Below, in pieces: positions 5,925-57,519 of a DNA stretch of 64,000 nt. How positions within the stretch are numbered: the first letter of the stretch is position 1; each line of letters opens with the position of its first letter. Where the stretch lies: NCBI GenBank assembly GCA_025998675.1, contig AP024673.1, positions 1,763,221-1,827,220 of the forward strand, given 5' to 3'. Below the pieces are notes generated by a model. That model did no database searches. It was not told the origin of the DNA and worked only from the letters and a program-made list of their open reading frames with translations. This DNA comes from Fimbriimonadales bacterium. Its GTDB lineage: Bacteria; Armatimonadota; Fimbriimonadia; Fimbriimonadales; GBS-DC. A program made the position numbers and the translations under genes.

Positions 5925-6252
5925 GCCAGTTGCCTCCCCATCATGAAATGAGTACCTGATGGATTCTGTGTGCAGTAGCCGCCTCCTGCCAGTGAATTGC
6001 CCCCTAATCCGCGTAAGAGTTGTCAGTTATTTTCGGCGCGCGCAACTTTCGAAACGAGTCCGCAGATACGCACGGTGGAGCAGCTGCTGCGCGGCGAGGA
6101 ATTTGCGATTCCCAGCGCGGCGCTACCTTGGAGGATTCAGGCGGCGAAGCGGACAGCGCTTGCCAACCACCAGCCGAAGCTGGAACTATCAATCCATTCT
6201 AACCTCTGGCGTGCGGAAGCGGGGCTTTCGCACGCCAGAATCACACGCCGCC
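5925..6252. other. Intergenic stretch with a possible methylase remnant and a hairpin
   Basis: No intact gene is seen. In one plus-strand frame about 6059-6195 encodes IRTVEQLLRGEEFAIP and LPWRIQAAKR, resembling tails of some adenine-specific DNA methylases. It has no upstream body and looks like a relic, but this is weak. A near-perfect palindrome (about 6206-6238, CTGGCGTGCG/CGCACGCCAG) lies just beyond the end of the next gene. It resembles the GTGCGGAAGC hairpins elsewhere in the window. Confidence 0.35.
6206..6238. repeat. Palindromic hairpin (GTGCGGAAGC family variant)
   Basis: The arms CTGGCGTGCG and CGCACGCCAG enclose GAAGCG-type sequence. It is a diverged relative of the hairpins at 14611-14717, 50033-50064 and 57092-57144. 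It may also act as a transcription terminator for the leftward dockerin-like gene. Confidence 0.5.
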
Positions 6253-7050
6253 TTACGGGCAGGTCGAGCCGAACGCAAACAGCACCGTGAGCAGGTCGGC
6301 GTCGTCCACCACCCCGTCGCCGTTGGCGTCCGCGTCGGGGTCATCCGAGCCGAAGGCGAACAACACCTGCAGCAGGTCGGCGTCGTCCACCACCCCGTCG
6401 CCGTTCACATTGCCGAACACACCCGTGAAGCCGCCGCCATACGCTTCCCAGTCCATCGAGTCGACAACCGCTACAGCATTGAGTCCCTGAGCGCAAAACA
6501 GAAGTCCCTCCACGCGCAGGAAGTTGTTCGCGTCGCCGCCGTTCTCCTCGAACTGCAGGGTGACCTCCTGCCAGTTCGGGTCGTAGGGGTTGTTCTGGCA
6601 CTGAATGGGCGTTACGCGCGCCTGCAGCGTGCCCGCAAGGCGGGTAATCAGCACCTGAATTTCAGTGCCATTCAGATTGACCGTAATACACTGGTTCGGG
6701 TTCGTATCCGCAGACCAGCGGATAATCGCTTCGCTGGCGTTTTGGGAGACAACCGTACCGACAAGTGGTAGGTCGTAATTAATGCCCAAGTCGGGGAAAA
6801 GTTCCTGGACACTCAAGAGGAGATCTATCGCCAGTCCGTCGTTGTTCAGGTCTTGCAGGGTGAACTCAATCGGGTCAGACGCCGAGATATCGCCGCTCAA
6901 GCTAAGTGAGCCTGTGATGTTGTATTGTCCGCTGTTAAACTTCCAGTAGATTTTGCCGCCCTGTTCGAGGTTGGTGATAATCTGGGCGTTCGCGAGCGCG
7001 ATCAGCGCGCTCAGCGCTCCAAAAGCCAGTACCTTTCGTAGCATCCTCAT
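6253..7050 (-). CDS. Secreted protein with C-terminal dockerin-like Ca-binding pair
   Basis: The 265-residue product has a signal peptide (RKVLAFGALSALIALANA, likely cut after ANA) and a beta-rich, cysteine-poor middle of unknown function. Its tail holds two dockerin-like repeats, VNGDGVVDDADLLQVLFAFG and ANGDGVVDDADLLTVLFAFG. The D-x-N-x-D-G loops should bind calcium. Near-identical tails occur in the genes at 27460 and 45568. Start 7050 is set by an upstream GGAGG; a second in-frame ATG two codons later is possible. No cohesin was seen in the window, so the tail's partner is unknown. Confidence 0.8.
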   Translation of the reverse strand: MRMLRKVLAFGALSALIALANAQIITNLEQGGKIYWKFNSGQYNITGSLSLSGDISASDPIEFTLQDLNNDGLAIDLLLSVQELFPDLGINYDLPLVGTVVSQNASEAIIRWSADTNPNQCITVNLNGTEIQVLITRLAGTLQARVTPIQCQNNPYDPNWQEVTLQFEENGGDANNFLRVEGLLFCAQGLNAVAVVDSMDWEAYGGGFTGVFGNVNGDGVVDDADLLQVLFAFGSDDPDADANGDGVVDDADLLTVLFAFGSTCP

Positions 7051-11268: not shown

Positions 11269-12183
11269 ATGGCAAAGATCGAGCTGGTCAACCGCAAGTT
11301 CCCCGACTGGCTGAAGGTGCGCCTGCCCAAGCCAGAGAAGGTGCAACAGGTGGAGCAGATGATGCGCGACGCGCGCCTGCACACCGTCTGCGAAAGCGCC
11401 CGCTGTCCGAACCTGCCCGAATGCTGGTCAAAAGGCTCCGCGACCTTTATGATTCTGGGCGACATCTGCACGCGGCACTGCGGCTTCTGCGCCATCAAGA
11501 CGGGCAAGCCGCTGGCGTTAGACCCTCAGGAGCCGCAGCGACTGGCGGAGGCGGCGCAGCGCATGGGGCTGAAGCATATCGTGGTGACCTCCGTCGCGCG
11601 AGACGACTTGCCCGACGAGGGGGCAGGGCAGTTCGCGGCGACCATCCGCGCCCTGCACGCGACCATCCCCAACGCGATTGTGGAGGTGCTGACCCCTGAT
11701 TTCAAAGCCAAAAGCTGGTGCATCCGCCGCGTGGTGGACGCCGAGCCGGAGATTTTCAATCACAACATCGAGACCGTCGCCCGTCTGCACACCATCGTGC
11801 GCCCGCAGGCGCGCTACGACCGCTCCCTGAAAGTGCTGGAGATGGTCAAGCAGATGAACCCCGCGATTTACACCAAGTCGGGCATCATGCTGGGACTGGG
11901 CGAGACGCGCGAGGAGGTGCTGCAGACCATGCGCGATTTGCGCAGCGTGGGTGTGGACGCGCTCACCATCGGGCAGTACCTGCGCCCAACCCAGCGCCAT
12001 CTGCCCGTGCAGGAGTATATCCATCCCGATCAGTTTGAGGAGTATCGCGTTCTGGGGGAGGAGATGGGCTTCCTGTTCGTCGCGTCGGGACCGTTCATTC
12101 GCAGTTCGTACAATGCGATTGCGTTCTCCCAGCGCGTGATGGCGGAGAGGCTCGCGAAAGTCGGTGCGGTGGAGCGCGCGTAG
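11269..12183 (+). CDS. lipA: Lipoyl synthase
   Basis: LipA inserts two sulfurs into octanoyl chains on lipoyl domains such as that of the nearby PdhC. The 304-residue radical-SAM protein has the auxiliary cluster motif CESARCPNLPEC, the SAM-cluster motif CTRHCGFC and FNHNIETV. A C-terminal RSSYNA supplies the final Ser ligand. The start at 11269 follows TATAAT by seven bases, and homology begins a few residues later. It overlaps the start of the TamB-like gene by 20 bases. Confidence 0.96.
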   Translation: MAKIELVNRKFPDWLKVRLPKPEKVQQVEQMMRDARLHTVCESARCPNLPECWSKGSATFMILGDICTRHCGFCAIKTGKPLALDPQEPQRLAEAAQRMGLKHIVVTSVARDDLPDEGAGQFAATIRALHATIPNAIVEVLTPDFKAKSWCIRRVVDAEPEIFNHNIETVARLHTIVRPQARYDRSLKVLEMVKQMNPAIYTKSGIMLGLGETREEVLQTMRDLRSVGVDALTIGQYLRPTQRHLPVQEYIHPDQFEEYRVLGEEMGFLFVASGPFIRSSYNAIAFSQRVMAERLAKVGAVERA

Positions 12184-15100
12184 CCTGCTCTGGCGCGGGG
12201 GGCAGCTGCTGCTGATTGGGCTGCCCGTCGCGATTCTGGGGCTGGCGGGGCTGATGTACCTGTGGCAGGTGAAGCTGGCGGTCGAGGAGAGCCTGCCGCC
12301 CGCGTTGCGTCAGTACGCCCGCCGACAGGCGCAGCTGGATGTCCAGATGGAGCGCGTCTCCCTGCGCTGGAACGGCGTGCTGCTGACCCATCCCGAAGTG
12401 CGCACGCTCACGGGCGAGCGGCTGCTCCGCGCGCGGTATCTGGAGGTGCGTCTGCCTGCGGCGCGTGCGCCGCTCACCGTCGAGCTGGATCGCCCCGAAG
12501 TGTGGCTGCAGCGCAATCGGCAGGGCGTGTGGAACATCGACCCGCTGTTGCAGCAGCCGCGCCCGCCTGAACCGACGCCCATCACCTTCCGCCTGCGCGC
12601 CCGACAGGGCGCACTCTATTTTGACGATTTCCTGCCCGATGCGCCTGTGCGCGCGACGCTCTGGGCAGACGAGTTCACGCTCAGCCAGCCGCGCGTGGGG
12701 CAGGCAACCACCCTGCGCGGGGTAAGCGATGCGCTGGGCGCGGTGCGGGCGCGCGCGCTCTCCGACGGCAAGCGATGGCTGATCGAACTGGACGCTGAGC
12801 AGGTACAGGGCGCGCGCCTGAAACCCTACCTGCCCCGCAGCGACTTCGATCTCGCAGCGGCGACAGGGCGTGTGCAGGCGCAGGTGGTGTACGCGCCCGA
12901 TGAACCGCTGCGCATCGCAGGCACGGCTCAGGGCACAGCCCAGAATATAACTTTTCGCCAAAAACCGCTACCGTGGCGCACTGCCGAATTCCAGCTGGCG
13001 TTCACCGAGTCGCACATTGGCGGTACGCTCAAGGCGCGCGGCGGCAGCCTGCAGGCGCAGGGCAAGGTAGACTGGTCGGGACGCACGCCAGCGGTCGCAG
13101 TGCAGGCGTCTGTATCGGGACGCGACGCCGCCGCGCTCTGGCGACTGCTCCGCGACGATGCGCCGCTGATTGGCGGGCGGTATCAGGCGCAAGTTCGGGT
13201 GCAGGGCGCGCTGGACGACCTGCAGGCGCAGGGGGTCCTCTCGCTCGAGCGTGTGCGCACACCGCAGGGCGAGGTGCGCGCGATTCGTAGCCCGCTCGCT
13301 TTCGCGCAGGGACAACTACTGCTGCCCGACCTGCGGGCGCAGTACGCCGGGCGCACAGTGCAGGGCAAGCTCTGGCTGGACACCCGCCCAGAAACCCCGG
13401 AGATGCGCCTGTACGCCGTTGCCCGACAACTGCCGCTCCAGCGTATCCCTGCCCTGCGCGAGCAGCGACTGGACGGCGCGGCTGACCTTGCCCTGCTTGC
13501 CTACGGACGAACCGACGCGCCGACGATTGAGGCGAACCTGCGCATGGACGCGCTGCGCTACGCCGACCAGCGCGTCGGCGGGCTGCGCGCGCGCGTGCAG
13601 TATGCGAACGGCGCGCTCACCATCCCGCTGGCGACCCTGCAGGGCGCGCTCGGACTGGTGCAGGTTTCGGGCGAAATCCTTAAGATTAACGAGGAGAACC
13701 CCCAGCTCGACCTGAGCATCGACGCGAATGAGGTAGACCTGAACCTGCTGGCGTCGCTGCTGGGGTACGAGAACGGCGCGAATGAGTCGATTCGGGTGGA
13801 CGGCGTGGGCTACCTGACGGCGCAGGTGCGTGGGACGCTTCAATCGCCCGAGGCGGTCGCCGAGGCGGTCGTGTTCGATGGGCGTGCGGGCGACATCGGC
13901 GCGGAGATTGCCGTCGTGAACATGAACCTGCTGGAACGCGAGCTGCGCATCACGCAACTGCAGGTGCTGCGGCGTGCGGCGCAACTGATTGCGTCGGGCG
14001 CGGTGCAACTGCCCGAAACGCCTGAACAGCCCCCGCGTTTCCAGCTGGAGGGCGACCTGTACGAGTTCGACCTCGCGAGCGTGCCCGACTGGCTGCGCCG
14101 TGAGCTGCCGCTCACGGGGCTGGCGTCGGGCAGGTTCCAGCTCGCAGGCGAGCCGCAACAGTGGCAACTGCGCGCTGACCTGAACGCCGAGAGCATCCAG
14201 TACGAGCAGACCCTGCTGCGCGAGAACCGCGCGCAGGCGCTTGTGCAGGCGCGCAACGGCGCGTTTGCGGTCGATGTAGAGTCGGCGCAGGCGCAGGTCG
14301 GCGGGGGCGCACTGACCGCGCGCGGGCGGTGGCAATCTGATGGGCAGTTCGAGGCGTCTTGGCGGCTGGAGAACGCCTCGCTGGACGCGCTTGCGCCCTA
14401 CCTGCCCGTGGAATACCGCCTCACGGGACAGGCAACGCTGGAGGGCGAGGCGGCGGGCACGCTCGACGCGCCCCGCGTGAACCTGAACCTGCAGGCACAG
14501 CAGATAGCCCTCAACGACGCGCCGCTGGGCGACCTGGAGGCGCAGGCGGCGATTGGGTATCGGGATGCGAGTGTTTTGCCCTCACCCCAAGCCCGTGAAG
14601 AGCGGCTTTTTGGAGTGCTGAAGCGTCCGCTTCCGCACTCCATAGGTAGGGCGCGATACGCTTTTGGAGTGCTGAAGCGGACGCTTCAGCATGCGGAAGC
14701 TCCGCTTCCGCACTCCAGAAGTACGGCGAATCGCAACGAGAGTGCGAACACTGCACAACAACGATCAGAGGAGAAAGACGAACGGGATGCGGGCATCCAG
14801 CTCACCGCGCAACTCGCCCTGCGCACGCCCGACGGCGAAGTGCGCATCCAATTGACAGAGTGCGACCTGTCGCGCCAGCAGTTTGCGCTGTCGGCGGAGA
14901 CGACTCCGCTGCCAGTGTCGTGGCTCCAGCGTGTGGCGCGCGCGGTTCCCGATGCGCTGCCGTCTGCCGTCGCCGAGCGCATCGAGACGCTCCAAGGGCA
15001 GGTGCAGGCGTCCCTGAATGTATCGGGCGCGTTCGCCGAACCCCTCGCGCAGCTGCGCCTGAACGCCGAGCAGCTGGAGTGGCGCCAGCAGTCGCTGGGC

Positions 15101-16966
15101 AACCTGAGCCTGCAGGCGGAATGGGCGGGTATGTCGACAGGCGACGTCCGCGCCGACGCCTCCGACGCGGAACGCGCCCTCGATACCCTCCAGCGACTGC
15201 GCACTCGTCGCGCCGCGCTGCAAGCACTGCGCTGGGAAGCCGACGCGACCCGCCTCGAGGCGCAGGGCGAATACACGCCCGAACGCCTGACCGCCGACCT
15301 CGAAATCGCGCAGCTGCCCCTGCGCTGGGCGCGCCTGTGGGAGCCGAGCCTGCCTGAGTTCGACGGCGCGCTGGATCTGAGCCTGCTTGCCGAAGGCGCG
15401 CCCGAATCGCCCGAATTGACCCTCAGCGCAACAGTGAATCAGTTCACCTACGGGGATTACACCGTCGACCAGATTCTGTTCAGCCAGATCGAGGCGCGCG
15501 AGGGCGCCATCCAGACCGACGACGCGCTGATACGGATGGGCGACTATCAGGCGCGCCTGTCGGGACGCCTGCCGTTTCACTGGTCGCCGCTCGGCGTGCC
15601 CGACGATGAGCCGATTCAAATTAGCGCGCGCCTGCGCGAGCAGCCGCTGACCCTGCTGAGCCTCTTCGCGCCGATTGACCCCGCCCGTACACAGGGCACG
15701 ATTGAGGCGCTGCTGGAGATTAACGGCACGCTCGCCGAGCCGCAGCCGCGTGGACGCCTGCAAATCACCGACGGCGCGCTCGCGCTGCAGGAGCTGCGCA
15801 CTGCCTTAGAGGAAATCGGGCTGCAGGCAGTGTTCGACGGGCGTGAGGCGCGGATTGTCGAGGCGCAGGCGCGTTCGTCCGAGGGGGGGAGCCTGCGACT
15901 CGAGGGCGGCGTCGACCTGTCGGGCGAGCGACCTGTCGCGAATCTGACCCTCTACGCCGATGGGCTGACCGTCTCCGAGCCGAAACTGCCCGTGCTGGAG
16001 GGCAGCGCGCAGGCGGTGGTCTCAGGCGCGGTGCAGGTTGAAGGCGCGTTGATCGAGCCGCAGGTGCAGGGCGCGCTGCGCGTGCTGCGGGGATTCCTTT
16101 TCCTGCCGCCTGAGCTGCCCGAACGCGCGGCGGGCGAACCGCTGCCCATCAACCCGCGCTTCGACCTGCGCGTGGACATCGCCGACGACTTTACCCTGCG
16201 CAACCCGAATCTGGACACGCGGCTGGAGGGCGCGCTGCAGGTGGGCGGCGCGTTGCAGGCGCCGACTCTGTCGGGCGAGTTCAGCCTGCGCGGCGGCGCG
16301 CTCAGCCTGCCGACCGCGCGCCTGCGTATCGAGCCCGACAGCGTCGCCCGCCTCAACTACCCCTTCACCAGCGCGACAGGCGAGACCATCGCCCGCATCG
16401 AGCTGGATGTGCGCGCCAGCACGAATGTCGTCGCGCCCGACTTCACAGGCGACCCCGTGCGCTATCGCGTGGAGGTCGATGTGCGCGGACCGCTCGACGA
16501 CCCCGAACGCCTCCAGCTCAGCGCGCGCTCCGACCCGCCCGGCTTGTCCGAGCAGCGAATCCTCAGCCTGCTGGGGCGCGGGCAGGCGCTGTCCGCCATC
16601 GCGCGCGGCGCAGACCCCGCGCAGGTGTTCCGCGAGCAACTCGGCGACATCCTCACCGCGCAGGTGCTGCCCGAACTGCTCGCGCCGCTGGAGACAGGCA
16701 TCGCCGAGGCGTTCGACCTCGAACAGTTCACGCTGGACTACACGGGGCTGCGCCCGGCGAGCCTCTACCTCGTGAAAAACCTCTTCGACGGCTTCGGAAT
16801 CGCCTATCGGCGCGGGATTGGCGTCGCCAGCAACGAGTATCAGGCGCGCATCTTCTACCGCCTGCCGTTCCGCAACCGCCTGCTCCAGCGACTGCGCGTC
16901 GGCTTCGGCTTCGAACATACGGGCAACCGCTTCGTCTTTATCGAGGGAAGCGTGCTGTTTCGGTAG
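12164..16966 (+). CDS. TamB/AsmA-like giant inner-membrane protein (DUF490)
   Basis: A 1,600-residue protein with one N-terminal membrane helix (about 13-35) and a long beta-rich, repetitive periplasmic body. It ends in a DUF490/TamB-type C-terminus: SEQRILSLLGRGQALS, a VKNLFDGFGIAYRRG strand and a final Phe-rich strand. TamB-like proteins bridge inner and outer membranes and act in lipid transport or outer-membrane protein assembly. The GTG start lies inside lipA. Residues about 803-876 are low in family character and are encoded by palindromic repeats inserted in frame (14570-14790). The gene remains open throughout. Confidence 0.82.
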   Translation: MRWSARSLLWRGGQLLLIGLPVAILGLAGLMYLWQVKLAVEESLPPALRQYARRQAQLDVQMERVSLRWNGVLLTHPEVRTLTGERLLRARYLEVRLPAARAPLTVELDRPEVWLQRNRQGVWNIDPLLQQPRPPEPTPITFRLRARQGALYFDDFLPDAPVRATLWADEFTLSQPRVGQATTLRGVSDALGAVRARALSDGKRWLIELDAEQVQGARLKPYLPRSDFDLAAATGRVQAQVVYAPDEPLRIAGTAQGTAQNITFRQKPLPWRTAEFQLAFTESHIGGTLKARGGSLQAQGKVDWSGRTPAVAVQASVSGRDAAALWRLLRDDAPLIGGRYQAQVRVQGALDDLQAQGVLSLERVRTPQGEVRAIRSPLAFAQGQLLLPDLRAQYAGRTVQGKLWLDTRPETPEMRLYAVARQLPLQRIPALREQRLDGAADLALLAYGRTDAPTIEANLRMDALRYADQRVGGLRARVQYANGALTIPLATLQGALGLVQVSGEILKINEENPQLDLSIDANEVDLNLLASLLGYENGANESIRVDGVGYLTAQVRGTLQSPEAVAEAVVFDGRAGDIGAEIAVVNMNLLERELRITQLQVLRRAAQLIASGAVQLPETPEQPPRFQLEGDLYEFDLASVPDWLRRELPLTGLASGRFQLAGEPQQWQLRADLNAESIQYEQTLLRENRAQALVQARNGAFAVDVESAQAQVGGGALTARGRWQSDGQFEASWRLENASLDALAPYLPVEYRLTGQATLEGEAAGTLDAPRVNLNLQAQQIALNDAPLGDLEAQAAIGYRDASVLPSPQAREERLFGVLKRPLPHSIGRARYAFGVLKRTLQHAEAPLPHSRSTANRNESANTAQQRSEEKDERDAGIQLTAQLALRTPDGEVRIQLTECDLSRQQFALSAETTPLPVSWLQRVARAVPDALPSAVAERIETLQGQVQASLNVSGAFAEPLAQLRLNAEQLEWRQQSLGNLSLQAEWAGMSTGDVRADASDAERALDTLQRLRTRRAALQALRWEADATRLEAQGEYTPERLTADLEIAQLPLRWARLWEPSLPEFDGALDLSLLAEGAPESPELTLSATVNQFTYGDYTVDQILFSQIEAREGAIQTDDALIRMGDYQARLSGRLPFHWSPLGVPDDEPIQISARLREQPLTLLSLFAPIDPARTQGTIEALLEINGTLAEPQPRGRLQITDGALALQELRTALEEIGLQAVFDGREARIVEAQARSSEGGSLRLEGGVDLSGERPVANLTLYADGLTVSEPKLPVLEGSAQAVVSGAVQVEGALIEPQVQGALRVLRGFLFLPPELPERAAGEPLPINPRFDLRVDIADDFTLRNPNLDTRLEGALQVGGALQAPTLSGEFSLRGGALSLPTARLRIEPDSVARLNYPFTSATGETIARIELDVRASTNVVAPDFTGDPVRYRVEVDVRGPLDDPERLQLSARSDPPGLSEQRILSLLGRGQALSAIARGADPAQVFREQLGDILTAQVLPELLAPLETGIAEAFDLEQFTLDYTGLRPASLYLVKNLFDGFGIAYRRGIGVASNEYQARIFYRLPFRNRLLQRLRVGFGFEHTGNRFVFIEGSVLFR
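14570..14790. repeat. Palindromic repeat cluster inserted in frame in the TamB-like gene
   Basis: Two TGGAGTGC...GCACTCCA-type hairpins (14611-14642, 32 bp; 14665-14717, 53 bp) lie within the coding sequence, preceded by a CCCTCACCCC tract like those in intergenic elements. The reverse complement of the 53-bp unit differs from 57092-57144 by about two bases, and the 32-bp unit resembles 50033-50064. The reading frame passes through without a stop, adding FGVLKR...LPHS-type residues. Confidence 0.85.
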
Positions 16967-19622: not shown

Positions 19623-19788
19623 ATACCAAACGCGCAGTCATAATTCGTAAATCAGCGCTGTCTTTTGCCCTCACCCCCTTGTCCCCCTCTCCCGTCGTGC
19701 GGGAGAGGGGCTGGGGGTGAGGGCAAAACGCGCGTGGCTCTGGCTGTAGACGCACGGCAATTACGAAGTTTGACACGCGGATTGGTAT
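19623..19788. repeat. Dispersed inverted-end element, copy A (166 bp)
   Basis: The left end ATACCAAACGCGCAGTCATA and the right end (reading in to ATTGGTAT) are imperfect inverted repeats of about 28 bases. The core has a CCCTCACCCCC...GGGGGTGAGGG palindrome with GGGAGAGGGG. The same ends bound copies at 29019, 49993 and 54380. It sits directly before a VapC fragment that has lost its N-terminus. Confidence 0.75.
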
Positions 19789-27459: not shown

Positions 27460-28902
27460 ATGCGAACAACGATTGCATGCGGAATTGCACTGAGCGTGCT
27501 GGCGCTGGCTTCGGCGCAGGTGCGCGAAGTGTGGCGCTATGTGTATACGCCGCCGCAGAACGACTTTGCGGCGCAGATGACGCGCGCGGTGCGCCTATCA
27601 GACGGCGGGCTGATGCTGCTGGGCTGGGTGGAGACGCCGCTGAATGGGCGCGACGCGCTGGCTATCCGCCTGCTGCCCGACGGAACCCAGGCGTGGGTCT
27701 ACCAGCTCGACGGCGCGGGCTTCGACGACGCATTTGTGGACGCCGTGGAGCGTGCGAACGAGCTGCGCCTGCTGGGGCAGTTCACAGACGCCGATGGCTA
27801 CCTCTTCGCGCAGGTGCATCACCTCACGCCTGCGGGTCAGCCCAGCGCCGTCTTCACGCTTGCCCGCACCCCGAACGCACACCTGCGCCCGCTGCGGTTT
27901 TTGTACTTTGACGGGCTCTTCGTCGCCGCTGAAGAAGTCGCCTCAGGCGTCAGCCGCGCCATCTTCTACGAGGACAACTTCACCAACTACATTCTGTTCA
28001 ACCGTGTGAACATCCGACCGTGGGGCGTCATTACGAACCAGACGCCTGTATACGACTTCTTATATGGGAGCGTGGCGTCCTCAAACACTGCGATTGATAC
28101 CGCTTATATGGCGGCTGACTCTGCCATCTTCCGGTACTCTGGAGCCGCACGCGGTGTGGACATTCCCGCCGCAGGTGTGAAGAATCCCGTCTTTCCGGAA
28201 GATGTTGTGGGGATTCAATCGGAGGGCGGCTACACGGGCGAAGATGTGGTACTTATCTACCATCTGTATGGTTCGACGCTCTGGGGCTACCGCTACTCGT
28301 ACCTGTGGCACGACGACTACGCCGAGAGCCTTGCAATGGACGTGCAGGAGAATGTGTACCTGCTGGTGAAGACCGTCCTCTGGCGTGGCGATCCGTTCGA
28401 GCGCTACACCTTGCGGCTGGCGCGCTTCTCCAACAACGGCAGACTGCTTTCGGACGCCGAGCTGGTGGACGGGGGGCAGCCCTCCCTATCGGGAATAGTA
28501 CGCGTGAACCCTGCAGGGCAGCGGTATGTCGCCGTGTCGGGTGCATTTCATCCCGCAAGATTCCTGATGCGGGTGAACGCCAGCGGACAGCCTCTGTGGC
28601 GGTTCCCGATAACAATCGAGCCAGAGGCGCTGTTTGCTGAGCCAGACGGCAGCCTGCTCGTCGCAGGCACGCTGACCACTGAAGTGGACTACTACAATCG
28701 CTTCCAGCAGATGGCGGCAGTCAAGTACGCGCCCAGCGGCGACATTGACGGCAACGGCTGCGTGGACGACGCCGACCTGCTGCAGGCGCTATTCGTCTTT
28801 GGGCAGCAGGGCGCGGACCTCGCCGCCGACCTCAACGGCGACGGCGTCGTCGACGACGCCGACCTGCTGCAGGTGCTGTTCGCCTTCGGGCAGGGATGCT
28901 GA
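27460..28902 (+). CDS. Secreted beta-propeller-like protein with dockerin-like tail
   Basis: A 480-residue protein with signal peptide (IACGIALSVLALASA). It has a repetitive body rich in GGLMLLGWVET-like strands, as in WD/PQQ-type propeller proteins. The C-terminal pair IDGNGCVDDADLLQALFVFG and LNGDGVVDDADLLQVLFAFG resembles type I dockerin loops. Cys residues in the tail (GNGC and the final QGC) may pair. AAGGAGG precedes the ATG. Function unknown; the tail is shared with genes at 6253 and 45568. Confidence 0.75.
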   Translation: MRTTIACGIALSVLALASAQVREVWRYVYTPPQNDFAAQMTRAVRLSDGGLMLLGWVETPLNGRDALAIRLLPDGTQAWVYQLDGAGFDDAFVDAVERANELRLLGQFTDADGYLFAQVHHLTPAGQPSAVFTLARTPNAHLRPLRFLYFDGLFVAAEEVASGVSRAIFYEDNFTNYILFNRVNIRPWGVITNQTPVYDFLYGSVASSNTAIDTAYMAADSAIFRYSGAARGVDIPAAGVKNPVFPEDVVGIQSEGGYTGEDVVLIYHLYGSTLWGYRYSYLWHDDYAESLAMDVQENVYLLVKTVLWRGDPFERYTLRLARFSNNGRLLSDAELVDGGQPSLSGIVRVNPAGQRYVAVSGAFHPARFLMRVNASGQPLWRFPITIEPEALFAEPDGSLLVAGTLTTEVDYYNRFQQMAAVKYAPSGDIDGNGCVDDADLLQALFVFGQQGADLAADLNGDGVVDDADLLQVLFAFGQGC

Positions 28903-29344
28903 ATCCCATGCGTCGGTACGGGCGCGGCAATCGCGCCCGTACTGCTGCATACTAAAAGCGCCGATGCAATCAGTTTTCAGCAGTCGCGCTATCCGCGCAT
29001 GGAGTGCCAAAGCGCAGCTTACACCAAATGCGCCGTCAGAGTTCGTTAATTACCGACGCCTGTAGCCCTCACCCCCTTTGTCCCCCTCTCCCAAGGGGTT
29101 GGGAGAGGGGGATAGCGCGTCGCGCAAGGCTTGCGCGGCTCCCCTCTCCCGCGCGGCGGGAGAGGGGCTGGGGGTGAGGGCAACAAAGCGTTCCTGTGTT
29201 GCTGCCCGCGCAGGATAATTACGAACTCTGACGCGCCGATTGGCATAACGTAAAGACACTTCACACACCCTGCATCGTACCAGCTGTGAATCTCAGCAGG
29301 ATATCCGACCCACGAATTATGGAATAACGCCGTCGGGGATTGGT
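28903..29344. other. Intergenic region holding repeat copy B
   Basis: No gene is evident. Most of it is the 230-bp element described separately. Outside it, 28913-28945 has a weak CGGGCGCGGCAATCGCGCCCG hairpin that could terminate the dockerin gene transcript. Confidence 0.5.
29019..29248. repeat. Dispersed inverted-end element, copy B (about 230 bp)
   Basis: The ends ACACCAAATGCGCCGTCAGA and the matching right end to ATTGGCAT are inverted. The core holds CCCTCACCCCCTTTGTCCCC and its complement GGGGGTGAGGG, with an additional nested hairpin (CCCAAGGGGTTGGGAGAGG). It is longer than copy A but built on the same plan. Confidence 0.75.
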
Positions 29345-45567: not shown

Positions 45568-45972
45568 ATGAGAACCCTGATGGTGTGTGTCATCATGACA
45601 GTGCTGATGGGCGTCGCCTGCGCCCAGTCGGGCGGCGGGTACGACCTCAGCTGGTGGACGATTGACGGCGGCGGAGTCACTTTCGCCACAGGCGGAACTT
45701 TCAACCTCGGCGGCACAGTCGGTCAGCCCGACGCGAGCAACGCCCTCACGGGGGGCAGCTACAGCCTCACGGGCGGCTTCTGGTTCGCGCCCGCCTGTGT
45801 GCCTACCAACGGCGATGTGGACGGCAGCGGCTGCGTGGACGACGCCGACCTATTGCAGGTGCTGTTCGCCTTCGGGGCGACAGGGCTGAACCCCGCCGAT
45901 GTGAACTGCGACGCCACTGTGGACGACGCCGACCTGCTGATTGTGCTGTTCAACTTCGGTAGTGGCTGTTGA
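45568..45972 (+). CDS. Small secreted protein with dockerin-like tail
   Basis: The 134-residue product has a signal peptide (MVCVIMTVLMGVACAQ). A short Gly-rich beta module of the type seen in many secreted proteins follows (WWTIDGGG...GGSYSLTGGFW). It ends with two calcium-loop repeats, VDGSGCVDDADLLQVLFAFG and CDATVDDADLLIVLFNFG. AAGGAGG precedes the ATG. It is little more than an export signal, a linker module and the tail. Its 3' end overlaps the convergent regulator by 123 bases. Confidence 0.8.
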   Translation: MRTLMVCVIMTVLMGVACAQSGGGYDLSWWTIDGGGVTFATGGTFNLGGTVGQPDASNALTGGSYSLTGGFWFAPACVPTNGDVDGSGCVDDADLLQVLFAFGATGLNPADVNCDATVDDADLLIVLFNFGSGC

Positions 45973-47262
45973 AAAGCGCCCCAGCACACGCCGGCGCCAG
46001 ACCGCCGCGTGAGTCGCCCGCGACGCGCTGAACCGCTGGAGTCGGAGCCGCCACGCCTGCGCCTCCGACTCCAGCCCACACTGGCACAGCACGCGCACCC
46101 ACACCAGCGATTTGTTGATGCACTGCTGGACGCGCTGCTCTTCGGGGTCTGCCAGCACGGGGTTGTCCTGCAGCACGCGCAGCGCCTGCTCGCTGTGTCC
46201 GAGATTCGCCAGCACCAGCGCGTCGGAGAGGAGGATGTTCGGGTCTTCTTCGAGCCATGGGCGGCTGCGTTGCTGGGCGGTGGCGTGGGCGTCGTGCGCC
46301 TCGCGTCGATAGCGCGAGAAGCTCAGGTATTCCGTGATGTTGCGCCAGAACCATGCGGCGTGTTCGGGGGCGTACCGCTCGGCGTGGGGGAGCCAGCGGC
46401 GCAGGATCTCGACGCCCTCCAGCGGCGCGAGGCGCGTCCCGCATTCCGATGCGCCTTTCGCCTGCGCGTGGATAATGTAGAACCACTGAGGCGCCATCGG
46501 CTCGGTAGAGTCCATCAGTCGCAGGGCGCGGTAGACTGACGCCTGCGCATCCTGCACACGCGCCTGCTCCACCAGGTAGCCGCAGTGGTAGGCGAAGGCG
46601 TCGATGAGCAGGCGCTTCGGCGCGCGGTTCGAACGCGCCATCTGCCACAGCCGTCCCTGAATGCCGCGATAGAGCAGGTCGATTAGCTCTGGGGCGACGG
46701 CGACCTCGTGGCGGCTGAGCGCCGTCAGCAGTTCGGCGATGTCGGCAGGCGACGAGACTTCAACAGGCAGCCACACCAGCACGCCCTGCCCGCCTTGCAG
46801 CGCCTGATGCTCTTCGGGGCGTGCACCCAGCGCCTCACAGAGCCGCGCCAGCTGCTCCGGGGAGGGCCAGCTCTCGGAACGCTCCCAGCGGCTCACCGTG
46901 CTGACCGTCACGCCCAGATGCAGCGCGACTCGCTCCTGAGTCCAGCCGCGGCGTTCCCGCAGCGCGTGCAACAGCTCGCCCCCCATCGGCGCCGTGCCCT
47001 CCAGCGGGGAGCCTCCGTGCGCAGCGCCCGCCGCCAGCGGCGCGGCGCGCGGGGCGTTCAGCAACTGCCACGCACAGGCGCGCTCGTGCTCCCGCGCCTG
47101 CAGAGCGTTCAGCACTGCCTCCAGCTCGTATACGCGCGGCAGGGTCGCGCCCGACTCCCAGCGGCTCAGAGTCGAGGCGCTCACTCTTGAAGCGCGCGCC
47201 AGCTGGCGCAACGACAGTCCCCTCGATGCACGCAGGCGACGCAAATGCTCTGCCAGACCCAT
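45850..47262 (-). CDS. Tandem-HTH XRE-family regulator with helical-repeat domain
   Basis: A 470-residue protein with two Cro/CI-type helix-turn-helix domains: residues about 1-55 (SRGLSLRQLARASRVSASTL) and about 100-150 (RRGWTQERVALHLGVTVSTV). The remainder is a helical, TPR-like effector region. The last ~41 codons run antisense through the dockerin tail gene and read EVEQHNQQVGVVHS, which looks like shadow sequence, so the native C-terminus may have been lost. ATG 47262 follows TATAAT (47282-47287) and GGGGAG. Divergent from the CAP gene. Confidence 0.72.
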   Translation of the reverse strand: MGLAEHLRRLRASRGLSLRQLARASRVSASTLSRWESGATLPRVYELEAVLNALQAREHERACAWQLLNAPRAAPLAAGAAHGGSPLEGTAPMGGELLHALRERRGWTQERVALHLGVTVSTVSRWERSESWPSPEQLARLCEALGARPEEHQALQGGQGVLVWLPVEVSSPADIAELLTALSRHEVAVAPELIDLLYRGIQGRLWQMARSNRAPKRLLIDAFAYHCGYLVEQARVQDAQASVYRALRLMDSTEPMAPQWFYIIHAQAKGASECGTRLAPLEGVEILRRWLPHAERYAPEHAAWFWRNITEYLSFSRYRREAHDAHATAQQRSRPWLEEDPNILLSDALVLANLGHSEQALRVLQDNPVLADPEEQRVQQCINKSLVWVRVLCQCGLESEAQAWRLRLQRFSASRATHAAVWRRRVLGRFSTATTEVEQHNQQVGVVHSGVAVHIGGVQPCRPEGEQHLQ

Positions 47263-49992: not shown

Positions 49993-50147
49993 ATACCAAT
50001 CTGCTGGTCATAGTGCATAAAACGGCGGTTTATGGAGTGCGGAAGCTCCCGCTTCAGCACTCCATAGTCGCAGGGTGCGGGCAACAAGCACGCTTCTGCA
50101 GGTGTGTGCGAGGCAATTAACGAACTTTGACTGCGCAGTTGGTATAA
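49993..50147. repeat. Dispersed inverted-end element, copy C (155 bp)
   Basis: The left end is ATACCAATCTGCTGGTCATA. The right end TTAACGAACTTTGACTGCGC runs to GTTGGTAT and matches the right end of copy D nearly base for base. The core holds the 32-bp GTGCGGAAGC/GCTTCAGCAC hairpin (50033-50064) that also occurs within the TamB-like gene. Confidence 0.8.
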
Positions 50148-50182
50148 GAGGCGCGGCGTAAACCCATACGCCGCGCCTGCGT

Positions 50183-54106: not shown

Positions 54107-54595
54107 AGACCTCCTATGATTGGTTTCGCGAAGCCTCTAAGGGCTTCATGGAATTAGACTCGAAAGTCGCCCAAAAGCGGACAAGGGCACGAGAGGGTGC
54201 TTCAGGCTCCTTTCAAGTCTATTATAGCACGGAAATCGTTGCACTGACGCCAGTAAAAATGCGAGTTTTGGGAAGTGGATTGGCTGCTTCTGGGGGCAAT
54301 CTTGGTGTTCGTCAGAGGGGTAGGTTTTTTGAGGCGCGCGCCGTTTGTGCGCGTACCAGAGTATGGAGAGGCGCGCCTTATACCAATCGGCGCATCAGCG
54401 TTCGTTAATTGGGGCTGAATCGCATGAATGACCCGACCCCTCTCCTGCAGGTTCCCCCTGCACGCAGGGGGAACCGAGTCTTGGTTCTCCTCGCTTGCGG
54501 GGGGAACCTTACGGAGGGGGGTACTTAACGAACTTTGACTGCGCAATTGGTATTAGTCGACAGCTGAAGCCGCACTACCCACCAGAAACGCCCCG
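54107..54595. other. Intergenic region around repeat copy D
   Basis: No gene is supported. It holds the upstream region of the PEP-CTERM gene (AGGAGG and a low-GC stretch at about 54210-54260 that may contain its promoter) and repeat copy D. Confidence 0.5.
54380..54554. repeat. Dispersed inverted-end element, copy D (175 bp)
   Basis: The left end ATACCAATCGGCGCATCAGC, with GTTCGTTAATT, pairs with the right end TTAACGAACTTTGACTGCGC running to ATTGGTAT. The core has GGTTCCCCCTGC...GCAGGGGGAACC and a second GGTTCTCC/GGGGAACC hairpin. A relative of this core in the opposite orientation occurs at 57191-57310. Confidence 0.8.
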
Positions 54596-57091: not shown

Positions 57092-57144
57092 TGGAGTGCG
57101 GAAGCGGAGCTTCCGCATGCTGAAGCTGACGCTTCAGCACTCCA
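57092..57144. repeat. 53-bp double hairpin, near-identical to one inside the TamB gene
   Basis: TGGAGTGCGGAAGCGGAGCT begins the unit, which continues through TTCCGCATGCTGAAGC to GCTTCAGCACTCCA. It is two nested palindromes back to back. The reverse complement of 14665-14717 differs at about two positions, so the two are copies in opposite orientation. Confidence 0.85.
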
Positions 57145-57190: not shown

Positions 57191-57370
57191 TTATACTAAT
57201 CAAGCTGCCGCAGTTCGCAAAATACCCTCCTCCATAAGGTTCCTTGCACAAGCGAGGGGAACCGAGCTCGGGTCCCCATGAGCGCAGGGGGAAACTGTAG
57301 GAGTCGGTGCAGGCAGATAGGAGTTTGTCAGCCCTCACCCCCAGCCCCTCTCCCGCAGGCGGGAGAGGGG
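57191..57370. repeat. Degenerate dispersed element, copy F
   Basis: It starts TTATACTAATCAAGCTGCCG, similar to the family's left end. It then carries CCTCCATAAGGTTCC, AAGCGAGGGGAACCGAG and GCAGGGGGAAAC, which align with the core of copy D read in reverse. The right end is replaced by a CCCTCACCCCCAGCCCC hairpin as in copies A and B, which makes it a mosaic. Confidence 0.6.
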
Positions 57371-57519
57371 CGCTGTGCCGCATTGAGTCCTCTGTCGTTG
57401 CGCAAAAACGCTCAATTGACTCTATCTGCATCAGTACAATTCTACCACGCATCCGAAAGACGCTCCGATTGGAGTACACACGCAGATGGGGTTCTATTTT
57501 GTGTTCCATGCAGCTCCAC

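Follow-up and report, generated by a model that had tools for sequence, protein, structure and literature searches.

In-frame insertion of REP-like palindromes in a TamB-like protein and in linkers of other proteins of a Fimbriimonadales bacterium

The closest described systems to the repeats analysed here are the REP and REPIN sequences associated with RAYT genes, which are high-copy short palindromes (20-50 nt), largely arranged as inverted doublets and mostly intergenic; they adjoin a gene for a Y1 HUH transposase that carries an NPVRxG motif, and RAYT and repeat co-occur by lineage (Nunvar 2010, PMC2817692; PMC3116915). In several species, REPs of the GTAG/CGTC classes have also been found within known proteins, where they are read in frame, and different REPs occupy about the same recB site in two Xanthomonas species (PMC3733652). 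Another related system is that of the Rickettsia palindromic elements (RPEs). As described in PMC10969869 and PMC3733652, they measure about 150 bp, very often lie inside genes (nearly half of them in R. conorii, PMC10969869) and encode a conserved peptide. Our literature search retrieved no description of repetitive extragenic palindromic sequences in Armatimonadota/Armatimonadetes.

The window studied here (the whole stretch of 64,000 nucleotides that was analysed) belongs to a one-contig, 2.99-Mb genome of the Fimbriimonadales (Armatimonadota). It contains a tamB-like gene whose product carries the C-terminal TamB domain, which assigns it to the TamB family, and which has homologues in 39 of 41 relatives. 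The gene and its insert comprise the following features, in which REP1 and REP2 designate the two repeat families described below.

12164..16966, plus strand: tamB-like open reading frame of 1600 residues, host of the insert (PF04357, E 1e-38, residues 1235-1567)
14566..14784, plus strand: in-frame insert of about 74 residues, with approximate limits set against the shortest congeneric homologues (protein alignment; pLDDT<50)
14578..14594, plus strand: relic of a REP2 left end (GCCCTCACCCCAAGCCC), 5' of the hairpins (sequence comparison; G008 carries a full REP2 in this loop)
14611..14642, plus strand: 32-bp single REP1 hairpin, a shortened doublet (profile E 2e-6; fold z -5.2)
14665..14717, plus strand: 53-bp REP1 doublet, REPIN-like, with two inverted hairpins (profile E 2e-16; fold z -6.8)

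The original prediction held that the frame remains open through these hairpins for about 70 extra residues, and the open frame was recovered here. In the genus alignment, the loop comprises 101 residues in this protein versus 27 in the homologues of G009 and G011, so that about 74 residues (approximately 800 to 873) are extra; the absence of the segment from close homologues, which had been proposed as a check, is therefore observed in these two genomes. The G008 loop is also long, with a sequence that differs from that of this genome, and the remaining congeners have loops of intermediate length. The profile that detected the hairpins was built solely from REP1 copies outside the window (hit edges 14612-14642 and 14665-14717), and both fold as single-stranded DNA far beyond expectation, none of 200 shuffles being as good. 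The last ~60 bp of the insert, at its 3' end after the hairpins, match none of the repeats found, and a search of Rfam gave no match at gathering thresholds.

AlphaFold2, run on a 310-residue TamB segment with an alignment of six sequences, gave the insert a pLDDT below 50 (segment residues 114-184) and the strands on either side values above 90, so the insert is predicted to be a disordered loop between confident strands. This model agrees with the earlier suggestion that a repeat-derived insert may be tolerated in a flexible loop of TamB. A Foldseek search with the TamB segment, a partial and beta-rich query, retrieved nothing significant (best E 0.05). Because dN/dS is low on both sides of the loop (0.16-0.38, and 0.21-0.29 against G008), both flanks are under purifying selection, and tamB is thus still selected downstream of the insert.

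The REP1 family, whose core is TGGAGTGCKGAAGCNNNNGCTTCNGCA, has 139 matches in this genome with at most two mismatches, versus none for a reversed-pattern control. These matches lie both between and inside genes, as expected from the proposal that the element spreads through the two kinds of DNA. With at most one mismatch, REP1 was otherwise found in the sister genome G008 (63 copies) and in G016 (4), and in none of 11 other congeners or the rest of the 41 genomes. Doublets, mostly of 53-55 bp, account for 81 copies and have the inverted arrangement that defines REPINs, with folding z values of -6.8 and -7.7; REP1 is thus a short, high-copy and mostly extragenic palindrome, as REPs are. In four of the six frames, 63-68 of the 81 doublets are free of stops (29-31 in the remaining two), and, since shuffled sequence is stop-free in 60% of cases overall, the family is only mildly pre-adapted to read-through. 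The REP2 family consists of longer composite elements (113-115 bp for the most part), and its copy number varies widely within the genus (124 here, 160 in G010 and 0 in G005), and our searches found no transposase for it. Within the window, and outside tamB, the following copies were identified; the first two, both inverted and both intergenic, bear out the claim that the TamB hairpins have near-identical intergenic counterparts. We found neither protein-level conservation of the insert in all close homologues nor repeats unique to this locus, two outcomes that the original prediction had named as counting against it.

50020..50064, no strand assigned: intergenic REP1 copy (91% match to the 32-bp TamB hairpin over 50031-50064, inverted; profile)
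57092..57144, no strand assigned: intergenic REP1 doublet (94% match to the 53-bp TamB doublet, inverted; profile and folding)
6207..6244, no strand assigned: degenerate intergenic REP1 copy (profile E 8e-4)
29066..29180, no strand assigned: full REP2 composite element (profile E 5e-29)
19668..19733, no strand assigned: partial REP2 element (profile E 1e-8)
57332..57378, no strand assigned: partial REP2 element (profile E 3e-8)

The window also contains a third short repeat (TTAACGAACTTTGACTGCGCAGTTGGTATAAG), which is neither REP1 nor REP2, at 50112-50148, 54520-54556 and 29213-29249, and dockerin-like coding repeats of the GDG-x-VDDADLLQVLF type at 6265-6405, 28736-28903 and 45809-45973.

A RAYT-like protein of 181 residues is encoded at G000:1509173-1509715 (G000 being this genome), with REP1 on both sides. 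RAYTs are characterised by a His-hydrophobic-His motif and by an NP(L/V)(R/K)xG motif close to the catalytic tyrosine, and this protein has both, as FSNHYHIIV (HYH) and YVNNNPVRHG (NPVRHG), together with a Y1_Tnp match (E 1e-7). The G008 orthologue, the only other full-length one within the genus, is 71% identical and likewise bracketed by REP1 arrays, and both genomes therefore possess a cognate RAYT flanked by its repeat. Among 13 genus genomes, REP1 and the RAYT occur together in two and are both missing in 11. These observations suggest that the RAYT, a Y1 HUH transposase, probably moves REP1. Strong Y1_Tnp matches are present in all 11 congeners searched, and a second Y1_Tnp gene of this genome, at 1525060 (locus G000:1523560-1526895), bears a C-terminal extension. 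No REP1 lies within the 3.3-kb locus of this second gene.

The 126 REP1 positions among the matches listed correspond to 120 places, and a simple codon-usage gene finder was run on the 116 of them outside the window. Coding signal was found on both flanks at two, within CarB and a polytopic membrane protein, and homologues confirmed both. REP1 thus lies inside genes at 3 of ~120 places (TamB, CarB and the membrane protein), ~97% being outside, and given that ~80% of the window is coding, it is strongly depleted in genes, whether from selection, targeting or both. Long open frames over REP1 at L138, L139, L142, L147, L155 and others were discarded, their start-codon side having no coding signal or domain. 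For REP2, 51 clusters among the matches listed were checked, and there are at least two internal in-frame cases, LpxC and IspE. Two REP2 copies are also in frame in the C-terminal tail of a Mu-type transposase ORF (G000:684687-687587).

The in-frame repeats are therefore not confined to TamB and extend to CarB, LpxC, IspE and the membrane protein, and their comparison across the genus, in which several of the relatives are fragmented metagenome-assembled genomes, shows that the same linkers carry different repeats. In this genome, the TamB loop holds REP1 together with the REP2 relic; G008 and G010 have REP2 there, G007 and G003 an eroded REP2, and G009 and G011 a short loop. A REP2 initially placed at the same site in G013 is in fact in another loop, ~25 residues upstream. 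The CarB linker is located between the sites aligned to positions 476 and 482 of E. coli CarB; this genome has REP1 in it, G008 has REP2 and G012 has other repeats over ~120 residues, and the linker is empty in G004 and G006. LpxC aligns to a solved LpxC in two domain-length stretches, and the linker falls between these; it contains REP2 here, REP2 followed by REP1 in G008, REP2 in G010 and G007, and another repeat in G012, and is short in G009 and G011. The IspE linker, of 39 residues versus 8 in the solved 3pyd chain, contains REP2 here and REP1 nested in REP2 in G008. In G010, two loops of IspE hold REP2; the sequence is eroded in G004 and G006, and the site is empty in G001 and G014. The membrane protein contains REP1 here and a different tandem repeat in G008, and is short at this position in eight others. 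Across the set of ORFs for CarB, LpxC, IspE and TamB, almost all repeat-profile matches map to these loops. The others lie in a second LpxC loop (G010 and G007), at two further CarB sites (G010), in a first IspE loop (G010) and in a neighbouring TamB loop (G013).

In a concatenated tree, this genome and G008 are sisters with 100% support. The presence of REP1, REP2 or other repeats at one linker indicates more than one insertion event per linker, while the shared REP2 flanks indicate that some insertions were inherited and are not independent. All the listed insert-bearing CarB, LpxC, IspE and TamB matches are stop-free within the insert and continue in the same frame. This genome has a single LpxC match and a single IspE match, and the repeat-bearing copies are therefore presumably the working ones. 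Judging from the open frame, the selection on the flanks and the fact that LpxC and IspE are single-copy, the inserts would be translated.

Other repeats were also observed in these proteins. In G012, the CarB and LpxC linkers (C172 and C53) contain the palindrome-like repeats SVGVPADEQAR / VGGTPTLREG and GTDCQSVPR. In G010, whose automatic CarB alignment was unusable over the N part, the region before the CarB C-half (G010:C26:10225-12390) has an open reading frame that passes through an entire Y1 transposase with a PNHVH motif and tandem-repeat flanks; the contig ends there, so that a fusion to the N-half is only possible. In G007 (C166), the reading frame of a TetR-type regulator extends into a Y1 transposase that has GTGVPPVQ...ERDAQAT repeats on both sides.

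We consider it very probable that REPIN-like elements mobilised by the RAYT are tolerated in permissive loops and translated as disordered inserts. REP1 would be a miniature non-autonomous palindrome of the REP/REPIN type that inserts throughout the chromosome. Copies that break genes would be purged by selection, leaving survivors that are nearly all intergenic, and the stop-free, in-frame copies in flexible loops or linkers would persist as translated, disordered and presumably neutral inserts. In the tamB loop, an older REP2 may have been joined or disrupted by REP1; more generally, the same permissive linkers have been struck by palindrome families that differ between species, the inserts then eroding with the frame kept.

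The recurrence at the same linkers could also reflect insertion targeting more than selective tolerance, if single-stranded hairpin sites or repeats already present serve as landing pads. The nesting of REP1 in REP2 in the G008 IspE and its position after REP2 in the G008 LpxC fit such targeting, as does the presence of REP2 within 250 bp of 13 of 116 REP1 loci, a distance of up to 1,500 bp adding a single further locus. However, this pairing may merely reflect short intergenic spacers, the empty linkers had to take their first insertion without a resident repeat, and the struck linkers coincide with regions that vary in length among homologous proteins. We regard targeting as the main cause as rather unlikely.

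It is highly improbable that the TamB insert is a recruited functional peptide whose extra loop is useful. The frame is still open and several congeners have long loops at this site, but the loop differs in sequence in G008, is missing in G009 and G011 and is predicted to be disordered, and the same repeats occur in unrelated proteins. Moreover, TamB and CarB do not read REP1 in the same frame, so that no fixed peptide is preserved, which speaks against a selected one. Still less credence can be given to the idea that the insert is missing from the mature protein, the hairpins being bypassed by ribosomes or the segment removed, with an open frame that is accidental: the 131-nt region containing the hairpins does fold very strongly as a single strand, yet the stop-free, in-frame state of the inserts listed above for the four proteins would be needless if they were skipped. 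Finally, although repeats misassemble easily and most relatives are metagenome-assembled genomes, an assembly or frameshift artefact is hardly conceivable in a one-contig genome with an intact frame and with similar insertions in the same proteins of separately assembled genomes.

Beyond the tolerance of translated RAYT-mobilised inserts, which remains our preferred reading, we tentatively propose, as a somewhat doubtful extension, that the TamB, CarB, LpxC and IspE linkers could be lasting landing sites in which successive palindrome families, possibly including a whole RAYT gene (the G010 CarB), nest and erode. If so, disordered linkers would be continually renewed from mobile DNA.

In-frame REPs have usually been listed as isolated cases. 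Here, the members of a single genus form natural series in which the same loops are empty, inserted, nested or eroded, and the genes concerned are single-copy and likely essential. Such series allow a direct test of linker lengthening by mobile palindromes and of whether targeting or selection sets the sites of persistence, and they suggest that mobile DNA can lengthen protein linkers while leaving the gene intact. In practice, segments of the PHPxPLxxGxGE or WSAEAxL type in these proteomes should be read as repeat DNA and not as domains.

The original prediction compared the TamB hairpins to RPEs. The likeness stands for the presence of palindromic repeats in frame in unrelated genes, where they are apparently tolerated. 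Nevertheless, REP1 is 53-56 bp long, lies ~97% outside genes and is read in more than one frame, without the frequent intragenic position and conserved peptide of RPEs; as RPEs are very often intragenic and REP1 is so at only 3 of ~120 places, the RAYT-linked REP/REPIN system is the better analogue. REP1 shares with that system its copy number, its inverted doublets, its mostly intergenic location, the adjoining Y1 HUH transposase gene with the NPVRxG motif and the co-occurrence of RAYT and repeat by lineage. It differs in its host phylum, Armatimonadota, in a mobility that is putative here, and in its head. The GTAG or GTGG head usually found beside the palindrome (PMC2817692, PMC8266576) is absent from REP1, which starts with TGGAG and has the outer end T[A/T]TGGAGTGC, and this is the sole feature of the definitions in these two studies that REP1 lacks. 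REP1 therefore appears to work like a REP/REPIN but belongs to neither the GTAG nor the CGTC class. Like the intragenic GTAG/CGTC REPs (PMC3733652), it lies in frame inside known proteins, but without a GTAG or CGTC tag, and here the repeats occur in five proteins that are unrelated and include several core enzymes, the same linkers carrying different families in sister species, with nesting. Therefore, even though REPs inside genes and RPEs were already known, the lineage, which extends RAYT-linked repeats to Armatimonadota, the unusual REP1 head motif and the dense, nested recurrence of several families at identical linkers, mostly in core proteins, are new.
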